Shown: positions 61,381 to 64,000 of the stretch, in pieces
Layout: each line of letters starts with the position of its first letter
How positions within the stretch are numbered: the stretch's first letter is position 1
Assembly: GCA_003762875.1 (NCBI GenBank)
Contig: RIBL01000014.1
Span: 1 to 64,000, forward strand
DNA from: Muribaculaceae bacterium Isolate-110 (HZI)
GTDB lineage: Bacteria; Bacteroidota; Bacteroidia; Bacteroidales; Muribaculaceae
Direction: 5' to 3'
DNA: 64,000 nucleotides
The notes under the pieces: model-generated
What the model was told of the DNA's origin: nothing
Seen by the model: only the letters and a program-made list of their open reading frames with translations
Database searches by the model: none
Made by a program: the position numbers and the translations under genes

Positions 61381-62334
61381 TCAGAACGTTATTTTCAGCG
61401 AAAAGCCCTTGTAGTCACCTGAGATTACCGGAGCCAAAGAGCTCTCTATGCGACGCGTCGGCTGACTGTCATAAGCCATGTCGCCATCCGCCCCGGGGAG
61501 AGACAGACACCCCGAGCAATGAGTGTTGCGCCCGCGAAACAGGTCGACAACCTCGTTGACCGGATCGATAAGAAACACCACCACATTGCCAAGCACCTTC
61601 GACCCTAACAGATGATAATCATTCTCGACAATGCTGCGCTTGGCCCTGTAAAAACCCTCGCCAATCACACTGCCCACGAGCGGAGTGATAAAAATATCCT
61701 GTATCGAAGGCCGTTCCATAAACGCCTCTATGCCAAACTCCCACCCTATGGTCGACACACACGCACTGTAGAGCAGCGACCGCCAGAAATTAAATCCGCA
61801 CGAACGCGCCGCCATAAAATAAGCCGCCCCCGCATAGGGATGTAACACATAGTTGAATATCGGATTGTCATGGTCAATCTCAGGCCCCGACCTTATCACA
61901 TGATTATACCAACGCTTGAAGAGAGGCACATCCTGAATCTCGGCACGGTTCCACGACGTAGCGTCGGCCGGCAGACACTCCAGCACCAGCAGCGTGCCCA
62001 CATAGGCACTCGCCAGCACAGCCGTGTTGGTCCACATACGCTTCCAGTCGGGACTATTGAAAGTCATCGAATAAGGATGACAATATATCGACCTGTCATC
62101 GGGCACAGTCACAATAGCCGGATGAAACACCCCGGCCACAGCCGTATCGAGAGCACACGTGTTGGCCACATCGTCAAGCTCCACCTCGACCACATCGGCC
62201 ATCGACCCGGCCACATCGACCGAATCGGGATATATCACCGCAAAAAACGGATCGCTCTCCCCGCCCCGGACACAAGGCAGAGACAACACACACAATATAA
62301 TCACAGATATGATTCTGACCATAAATAAACTCAT
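61381..62334 (-). CDS. DUF3943 exported protein
   Basis: A 317-residue protein of the DUF3943 family. A signal peptide covers about 1-25. The conserved core runs from WKRMWTNTAVLASAYVG through HPYAGAAYFMAARSCGFNFWRSLLYSACVSTIGWEFGIEAF to PLVGSVIGEGFYRAKR, with several helical hydrophobic segments. Function is unknown. The ATG at 62334 lies in the arm of a hairpin that may end the upstream protease transcript; ATG 62322 is an alternative start. Confidence 0.82.
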   Translation of the reverse strand: MSLFMVRIISVIILCVLSLPCVRGGESDPFFAVIYPDSVDVAGSMADVVEVELDDVANTCALDTAVAGVFHPAIVTVPDDRSIYCHPYSMTFNSPDWKRMWTNTAVLASAYVGTLLVLECLPADATSWNRAEIQDVPLFKRWYNHVIRSGPEIDHDNPIFNYVLHPYAGAAYFMAARSCGFNFWRSLLYSACVSTIGWEFGIEAFMERPSIQDIFITPLVGSVIGEGFYRAKRSIVENDYHLLGSKVLGNVVVFLIDPVNEVVDLFRGRNTHCSGCLSLPGADGDMAYDSQPTRRIESSLAPVISGDYKGFSLKITF

Positions 62335-62402: not shown

Positions 62403-64000
62403 TTACTGCAATCGTCCGGCAGTCTGGATCAGTTCGGCAGACAAAGCCGGAGGCAACGATGTGTCATCAACCATACGGCGACAATAGTCAATAATCTCAC
62501 CCTTACGCGATGAATATCTGAACCATCCAAGGGCCTCAGCCATATTGACTCTTACGGCATCAGAGTTGCCATCGTCTGATATAACAGCAAGATAACTGTC
62601 TATATTAAAGTGATATGGATTATTTCGCACAAAGCGTATGGCTGAAATACGTTTCCTATCGTCAAGCGACTTGTCGACAATACGTTTATTATAGTCTTCA
62701 GCAAACTCAAACGTCCGGGCTAATCCATCAATCACAGCTTTTTTCTCTTCTTCGAAATTATAACGCGGATTCATTACATAGTAATTGTCTATACATCTCA
62801 TCACATCCTCTCGAGGGAAAAGTGCGAGTGAATTACTGAGAGTATAATTGACTCGCTGACGTTCTCCACCGTCAATATATGCAGCCACGACAGCCGGCAA
62901 CAGCGATACGTCACCGATTTCACCAGCCAAGTCTGCACTCATGCGGGCTATACGTTCGTAAGGATCATTGATTCCCATGCGTACCGCTTCTCTGAACTCA
63001 TCATTACTATACACACCCAGAAGCTTCAGAGCCTCCATGCGGGTAGTACAGAACGGTGACGAGCGAAAGACCTCAAGCAGACGTGGTGAAAACGAACTCT
63101 CCGGCACAAGGTGTGACAACATGCGCAGAGCCAAGGATCGCACATCAGCATAAGGCGAGTCGAGCAACGATTCCCAATAAGACTCGTCATCACGATGCAG
63201 AGTCAGGGCTGAAGATAGAGTATTGGACTGAAGAGGTGCAAAATGCATAGTAGGATCCCCTATCATATGACCTTCAAGCGTTGCAACCAGACGGTTATAC
63301 TGTCCGGCTCGTACTCCGTGCGAGAGGAGACCTATCATCTCGATGGTCCAACGGTCCTGAAGCACATTGCGTGTATTTCCTTGAGTGACCACAGTCGCTC
63401 CCGGATTAAATATATACTCTCCTGCAATATAGTCGTCTTCATGAAACGAACCATTGTAGCACGCATCAAACATCACCATCCTCGGCATAGTCACACGATC
63501 ATGAAACTCTTCGGCATAAATATCCTTAGCCGCGACCTCCGACGAATCACGGGCAATGAGATCCGAATTATCAAAATCAGCGAAAAACGTGGAGGTAAGA
63601 TTAAATTCCTTGGCAAACGCATCAATGACCTCATCGCGCGGATTGCCCTTGCTTATAGCTCGTCTCACCCGCGAATATATGTCTTGACGAAAGTGGCGAA
63701 CGCGGTCATCAAACTTGTCAGCCTCACCGAATCCATTGATATACTGAGTAGTCGGAGCTCCATGCTCATGAAACATAAACAAATCGATTCCCGGACGTTC
63801 AAGTTCAGAAAAGATACGATGTTTCATAGGTTCCAACATGCGAAAATTCCAGTGTTTAAATCCTGTGGCCGATGTAAATGCTTCCGGGAAATGTTCCTTA
63901 TAAGCCTTCTCCTCATCCATCCAGGCAATAAGACAATCACCATTATAGCCATGACCGTTAAACGACACTACACGGTCAACACGGTCAACAGCCATGTCAG
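62403..64000 (-). CDS. Gingipain-like (C25) cysteine protease with HEAT repeats, partial
   Basis: The C-terminal 530 residues and more of a protein that continues past the right edge: the frame is open to base 64000, so the ATG at 63995 is probably internal. It shows the caspase-like C25 fold: His78 in FHEHGA and Cys179 in MFDACYNGSF, followed by GATVVTQGNTRNV and EGHMIGDPTMHFAP, all resembling gingipain (numbers counted from 63995). The His-Cys distance is longer than in gingipains because of an insert of about 70 residues. From about 265 onwards come HEAT-like helical repeats (AVRMGINDPYERIARMSADLAGEIG). No type IX secretion tail is seen at the end. Confidence 0.75.
   Translation of the reverse strand, partial: DMAVDRVDRVVSFNGHGYNGDCLIAWMDEEKAYKEHFPEAFTSATGFKHWNFRMLEPMKHRIFSELERPGIDLFMFHEHGAPTTQYINGFGEADKFDDRVRHFRQDIYSRVRRAISKGNPRDEVIDAFAKEFNLTSTFFADFDNSDLIARDSSEVAAKDIYAEEFHDRVTMPRMVMFDACYNGSFHEDDYIAGEYIFNPGATVVTQGNTRNVLQDRWTIEMIGLLSHGVRAGQYNRLVATLEGHMIGDPTMHFAPLQSNTLSSALTLHRDDESYWESLLDSPYADVRSLALRMLSHLVPESSFSPRLLEVFRSSPFCTTRMEALKLLGVYSNDEFREAVRMGINDPYERIARMSADLAGEIGDVSLLPAVVAAYIDGGERQRVNYTLSNSLALFPREDVMRCIDNYYVMNPRYNFEEEKKAVIDGLARTFEFAEDYNKRIVDKSLDDRKRISAIRFVRNNPYHFNIDSYLAVISDDGNSDAVRVNMAEALGWFRYSSRKGEIIDYCRRMVDDTSLPPALSAELIQTAGRLQ

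Follow-up and report, generated by a model that had tools for sequence, protein, structure and literature searches.

The gene at the end of the window, by which we mean the whole stretch of 64,000 nucleotides that was analysed (positions 1-64000 of contig C8 of a 3.42 Mb genome), raises the question of what a gingipain-like protease does when its C-terminal half is a HEAT-repeat scaffold. The original prediction was a C25 protease controlled or targeted by a protein-binding scaffold, rather than a classic secreted gingipain. The minus-strand open reading frame 62403-63998 runs off the window edge; the full gene, which had been proposed as the first thing to obtain, was read beyond position 64000 and adds 203 N-terminal residues with a putative signal peptide and the N-subdomain (Table 1).

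Table 1. Features of the C25-HEAT gene and its cassette (contig positions; cassette genes above 64000 lie outside the window)
Feature	Position	Strand	Description
C25-HEAT protease gene (H2-type paralogue)	62403-64607	minus	734 aa, GTG start
In-window gene part	62403-64000	minus	residues 204-734 plus stop; gene continues to 64607
C25/caspase-like domain, in-window part	63222-63998	minus	residues 204-462; domain start at about residue 30, outside the window
HEAT-repeat solenoid	62406-63221	minus	residues 463-734; Pfam HEAT_2, orthologue model helices, solenoid structure matches
His282, probable catalytic His (HG motif)	63762-63764	minus	invariant in relatives; window re-translated
Cys383, probable catalytic Cys (DACYNG; FDACYNGSF)	63459-63461	minus	invariant in relatives; window re-translated
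Helical insert between His and Cys	63498-63713	minus	about residues 299-370; orthologue model helices between 298 and 369
H1-type C25-HEAT paralogue	64632-66878	minus	upstream cassette gene
DUF6850 barrel	66882-68435	minus	PF21012, E 1.1e-115
DUF4876 probable lipoprotein	68455-69717	minus	PF16215, E 3.1e-47
TonB-dependent receptor	69722-72574	minus	Plug domain

Predicted fold, active site and HEAT half

The assignment to C25 rests on predicted structure and motifs, since the sequence-profile links are weak or absent. Pfam PF01364 (Peptidase_C25) gave no match in the window protein at E up to 1, which places it outside the family as defined by sequence. The same model found two other proteins in the genome and matched one (E 0.013) of the 59 sequences used for the Pfam and NCBIfam scans of the family. 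Alignment with hhalign against 24 C25 domains, retained from 32 loci by a length filter, returned a probability of 12.7 and an E of 0.0023, and the 124 columns involved leave the dyad uncovered. A PDB profile search listed 27 rows, no C25 chain among them. An AlphaFold2 model of the Heminiphilus faecis orthologue (L009:10001-12205, 64% identical), built on 102 aligned relatives, reached a mean pLDDT of 95.9 and a pTM of 0.93. Residues 29-458 of this model were aligned to RgpB (1cvr) with Z 29.6 (2.9 A, 295 residues, 15% identity; VIA-align), followed by Kgp with Z 28.5, and the next non-C25 match was separase with Z 16.3. The caspase-like C25 catalytic fold that had been predicted was thus recovered in the orthologue model. 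No C25 entry was present among the 50 matches listed by Foldseek, and the gingipain emerged only from VIA re-alignment of Foldseek candidates; a search of viral structures gave no match at E <= 0.001.

The two motifs from which the family had been recognized proved to be strongly constrained. His282 and Gly283 of HEHG (residues 280-283, window 63759-63770, minus strand, re-translated) and Cys383 of FDACYNGSF are identical in 193/193 aligned relatives. This set is not redundancy-reduced and comprises 199 protease reading frames, minus seven (four fused, three under 600 aa), plus two added rows, namely the window protein, replacing its own reading frame, and the copy on contig C5, which hence occurs twice. 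The HG histidine and the cysteine also remain invariant in all 102 rows of alignment A3, drawn from the 193 as 102 of the 117 sequences below 80% mutual identity (the 15 others were dispensable or had N-termini that were long or cut), and both are conserved in 24/24 of the ordinary C25 domains compared. In the orthologue model, strands 275-279 and 376-380 precede His281 and Cys382, respectively, so that both motifs follow core strands. Model and motifs together make a gingipain (C25) fold with a His-Cys dyad almost certain for the family and an active protease likely. An inactive caspase-fold scaffold would gain nothing specific from these data beyond the variability of the other histidine of HEHG (residue 280, His in 161/193), and it is extremely improbable in view of the invariant HG histidine and cysteine in 102/102 divergent relatives.

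The insert between the two catalytic residues, which had been called unusual, is indeed long: family members have a median His-to-Cys spacing of 101 residues (range 38-127) as against 41 alignment columns in the 24 ordinary C25 domains. It is also variable, and none of its 73 columns (residues 297-369) reaches 95% identity. The prediction that the C-terminal half is a HEAT scaffold held as well. HEAT_2 is the sole Pfam family over cut-off in the window protein (E 1.6e-07) and, at E up to 1, was matched by all 59 members of the family that were scanned, and parts of orthologue residues 460-735 match HEAT, ARM and alphaRep solenoids with Z of about 11-13 (VIA-align), in keeping with a HEAT/ARM alpha-solenoid. 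Within this half, Glu551 and Arg585 are invariant in 193/193 aligned relatives, which indicates strict constraint on part of the solenoid; perhaps the HEAT half binds an imported substrate or a partner.

A conserved TonB receptor cassette and its distribution

Conserved neighbours were sought by a genome scan that returned 358 relatives, the closest being 71% identical (from a metagenome-assembled genome labelled Paenibacillus, probably mislabelled) and 64% identical (H. faecis), which makes a member of the Muribaculaceae the likely host of the gene. The best 80 of the 358 loci, which by record title come from Bacteroidota and Ignavibacteria, the one labelled Paenibacillus excepted, were fetched and joined by the two loci of the window's own genome (contigs C8 and C5), which carries the cassette twice. 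The protease accompanies a contiguous, co-directional trio of genes for a TonB receptor, a DUF4876 protein and a DUF6850 protein in 77 of these 82 loci; it follows the barrel gene in 73, whereas in four (L067, L068, L075 and L080) its sole position is ahead of the receptor gene. Of the five other loci, four are truncated at a contig end, and in the fifth (L084) the 8.6 kb upstream contain none of the trio genes. Spacing is operon-like, with median gaps of 13 bp (receptor-lipoprotein), 16 bp (lipoprotein-barrel), 27 bp (barrel-protease) and 6 bp (protease-protease), and the barrel-protease gap is up to 200 bp in 70/75. The DUF6850 model (pLDDT 91.6) is an outer-membrane barrel whose best structural match is CymA (Z 19.3), and DUF4876 has a solved relative (4q1z); by sequence, no solved relative was found for the receptor at E <= 0.001 and no convincing one for the barrel (best E 0.19). 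Such a conserved context suggests that the protease takes part in TonB-dependent import. The earlier reading is thereby redirected, with partial support, from a lone scaffold-controlled protease to a conserved part of an uptake cassette.

Most cassettes hold two or three tandem, diverged protease paralogues, and in a FastTree phylogeny of 191 sequences the paralogue clades largely track operon position. The H1 proteins group in a single clade of 63 (support 1.0), 61 of 64 H2 proteins fall into clades of 43 and 25 (support 1.0 each), and the other 60 are H3, most single-gene and upstream copies, which join H1 at a weak node (support 0.377). The window gene is of the H2 type and its neighbouring paralogue, 36% identical, of the H1 type; the third copy of this genome, in the full cassette on contig C5, groups with an H3, a single-gene and upstream copies. 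The four loci with the protease before the receptor contain single reading frames of 1419-1452 aa that resemble two fused C25-HEAT proteins. Elsewhere, the receptor of L016 (1591-4903; B. xylanisolvens) is read as two overlapping frames of 355 and 756 aa, a split not seen in its near-identical relatives. Three ignavibacterial loci (L071 7716-9935, L073 7697-9922 and L083 7699-9921) encode a similar protein of 739-741 aa between barrel and protease; in L071, Pfam identifies this protein as BNR/YCF48/Vps10-like and detects a T9SS sorting tail on it.

The flanks of the cassette are less uniform. All-against-all clustering of 557 flanking reading frames gave five clusters present in six or more loci, none of them near universal; in some lineages downstream peptidases occur, in clusters spanning 12 loci (the largest, one member being S9) and 8 loci (one member being S37) by Pfam. 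The DUF3943 gene that adjoins the protease gene (61381-62334) was considered as a cassette part and rejected, as relatives were found in only 3 of 87 loci, a set that includes those of its own genome (phmmer).

The C25 family also includes PorU, the sortase of the T9SS. A sortase-like mechanism for T9SS substrates is described in PMC4560394. By analogy, the C25-HEAT protein could be a maturation enzyme or sortase-like transpeptidase that cleaves or re-ligates a partner from its own operon, such as the lipoprotein or the receptor, instead of an imported ligand. Tight co-localization with three envelope proteins would suit such a PorU-like activity; two or three diverged paralogues, however, are better explained by substrate breadth than by one maturation step, and related trios exist that have no protease, so that this reading is unlikely. 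In a sample of 149 genomes, DUF6850 matched with E below 1e-70 at seven loci, and four of them are such trios with no protease gene nearby; one further, partial match over cut-off (E 1.3e-7) is not part of this count. The occurrence of such trios implies that the protease is not required for transport as such. The trio resembles a transport module able to combine with various processing components. Inspection by eye of the protease-free loci (L119, L120, L121 and L122) found a PepSY-type reading frame near L120 and L121, recognized also by comparison with the BT3625-33 locus as given in excerpts of PMC10434189, and an ABC transporter reading frame in L120.

The protease has a patchy distribution. 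At E <= 1e-50 it was detected in 12/149 genomes of a family sample and 11/295 of an order sample, own genome included, and nine other genomes of the same genus had no match at this threshold; a search of the 149 genomes with A3 reported 20 genomes, most with the HEAT part only and two with full-length matches. Blocks of 12-16 kb of cassette DNA are >99.9% identical between records of B. bouchesdurhonensis, Phocaeicola faecicola, B. xylanisolvens and a Butyricimonas sp., and two tyrosine-recombinase-like reading frames were seen by eye near these cassettes. A copy in B. finegoldii, identical across three protease genes (named 'hypothetical', 'HEAT repeat' and 'hypothetical' in RefSeq), lies in a region that also contains integrases, ParA, DUF3408 proteins and, together with an iron ABC transporter, a second TonB receptor. 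Sequence identity of this degree suggests that the cassette was recently mobile, with contamination of some draft records as the alternative. Among the identical cassettes L014-L017, the segment 16132-17459 of L014, inside a methylase-like gene, is inverted in L016 and L017 (by eye), and these four loci (L014, L015, L016 and L017) probably represent a recent mobile element with a phase-variable methylase. One of 72,556 plasmid records matched (NZ_OY725920.1; L123 and L124), named plasmid 18 of B. finegoldii; as it carries carB, trpS, mutL, clpX and rpmF, it resembles a chromosome fragment rather than a plasmid.

Patchiness and apparent mobility across Bacteroides, Phocaeicola and Butyricimonas records are what a fitness module would display, and the protease could in that case serve periplasmic quality control or defence, destroying bacteriocins or phage proteins that enter via the receptor. 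Yet receptor and lipoprotein travel along with it, which points to ligand acquisition, and the absence of any match among 50,697 phage records gives no support for a phage role. A defence function is therefore considered distinctly improbable.

Export and site of action

A signal peptide had been proposed as a further check, and the N-terminus of the window protein is signal-peptide-like. Among the 193 N-termini a crude rule classed 169 as SPI-like, 11 as lipoprotein-like, two as without signal and 11 as too short. The type IX sorting tail, noted as missing in the original prediction, was found neither in the window protein (Pfam and NCBIfam, E up to 1) nor in the 59 scanned members (NCBIfam, E up to 0.1, 20 families matched), and no such tail model is among the 25 of 58 Pfam families listed for these members. 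SprA was over cut-off in 24/50 carrier genomes, with one weak match below it and none in 25/50, where absence may reflect draft incompleteness; these genomes represent 50 of the 80 loci, selected for diversity and named isolates. The SprA-negative carriers include B. xylanisolvens XB1A, titled 'complete sequence', and the window's own genome has SprA. As carriers without a SprA match exist and the sorting tail was not found, the C25-HEAT family appears to be T9SS-independent. On the same two grounds a classic secreted gingipain was rejected, in line with the original prediction.

Gingipains, the nearest solved structures, act outside the cell. A surface or secreted C25-HEAT protease would, by extension, leave by an unknown route, perhaps with help from the DUF6850 barrel, and cut environmental proteins to feed the receptor. 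The barrel is a partner of unknown role, and the T9SS tail on the BNR/Vps10-like protein beside the protease in L071 indicates that some cassette products are exported. The protease itself, however, has mostly SPI-like N-termini and no detected sorting tail and occurs in 25/50 carriers without a SprA match, and the best structural matches of the barrel are ordinary porins and similar barrels, which renders a surface protease rather unlikely. A periplasmic C25-HEAT protein is reasonably likely, although a protein with an SPI signal need not end up in the periplasm.

Proposed role and relation to known systems

The reading that best accommodates these observations, to which we assign a probability of about 0.5, is that of a T9SS-independent, Sec-exported HEAT protease of predicted C25 fold, probably periplasmic, that would process the ligand of the TonB receptor. 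Its location in an outer-membrane uptake operon makes it probable that the protease cuts something imported rather than targets outside; the odds that it processes an imported ligand are put at about even. In this mechanism the C25-HEAT protein would be exported by Sec and stay in the periplasm, the receptor would import a peptide or small protein, possibly iron- or haem-bearing, the HEAT coil would hold the substrate or dock the protease at the transporter and the His-Cys dyad would cut the ligand, with H1, H2 and H3 paralogues perhaps differing in specificity. The model for such a route is FusC with its TonB-dependent partner FusA; PqqL is thought to act likewise with YddB. Iron or protein as the cargo is a tentative assignment. 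Equally speculative is the wider possibility of an unrecognized T9SS-independent, protease-associated import system in Bacteroidota and Ignavibacteria. In such a system a whole protein carrying iron or haem would be imported by a TonB receptor with two dedicated envelope partners and then dismantled in the periplasm by between one and three proteases of gingipain fold whose HEAT parts cradle the substrate, some copies travelling on mobile elements among gut Bacteroidales.

If the proposed role is correct, a large family labelled 'hypothetical' or 'HEAT repeat' (in one RefSeq record) would be a branch of gingipain-fold proteases without T9SS dependence. Protease-associated nutrient import would then extend from the M16 enzymes of Proteobacteria to another protease fold in gut Bacteroidota, and vaguely annotated, iron-regulated DUF4876/DUF6850/TonB loci would become a testable pathway. 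No description of the C25-HEAT family as a protease was found among the titles and beginnings of abstracts of the open-licence PMC articles listed in searches for this combination and its neighbours.

The gingipains RgpB and Kgp resemble the C25-HEAT proteins in catalytic-domain fold, HG and Cys motifs and N-terminal signal. They differ from them in that the C25-HEAT family has a helical His-Cys insert, a HEAT solenoid and no detected T9SS tail, resides in a TonB receptor cassette and includes carriers without a detectable T9SS translocon. Likeness to PorU is limited to the C25 fold family, by inference. Besides a PorU-like protein on contig C2, which from its length we take to be PorU, the genome holds a second Pfam-C25 protein (G000:C18:18157-19251; L002; frame of 1163 aa). 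Both are found by the Pfam C25 model, have no HEAT repeats and stand in a different gene context, whereas the C25-HEAT protein is not found by that model.

A link to iron is suggested by the iron ABC transporter in the integrase-bearing region of the B. finegoldii copy and by loci described in excerpts of PMC10434189. In that paper, BT1933-39 of B. theta (annotated as an IS256 transposase, hypothetical proteins, a HEAT repeat protein, DUF4876 and a TonB receptor) is induced 3.5-7.4-fold in low iron, a modest response relative to other iron loci of that study, and PG1019-22 of P. gingivalis (DUF4876, receptor and hypothetical proteins) is induced 20.8-214.5-fold. According to excerpts of PMC12119571, the change in PG1019 has the same sign as those in HmuY and flavodoxin. 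Both loci (PG1019-PG1022 and BT1933-BT1939) have the pair of DUF4876 and TonB receptor in common with the cassette, and the BT locus in addition has the HEAT-repeat protein; we infer from annotation wording and gene order, not from sequence, that BT1933-39 is a C25-HEAT cassette. In the same excerpts of PMC10434189 the HEAT protein of BT1933-BT1939 is not called a protease, and the terms 'C25' and 'gingipain' do not appear.

The closest functional parallel is provided by FusA/FusC and YddB/PqqL, which excerpts of PMC6793856 describe as TonB-dependent transporters that are paired with periplasmic M16 proteases and expressed in an iron-dependent manner, so that a receptor combined with a periplasmic protease is an established arrangement. 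The C25-HEAT cassette shares with these systems a TonB-dependent transporter encoded together with an exported, here predicted, protease, as found in 77/82 loci with 169/193 SPI-like N-termini. The Fus and Pqq proteases are M16 metallopeptidases of Proteobacteria, whereas a C25-HEAT enzyme combined with DUF4876 and DUF6850 proteins is found here in Bacteroidota and Ignavibacteria. The cassette may thus work in a Fus-like manner, but it is not classed as a Fus system because its protease has a C25 fold in place of the M16 type of FusC and PqqL.
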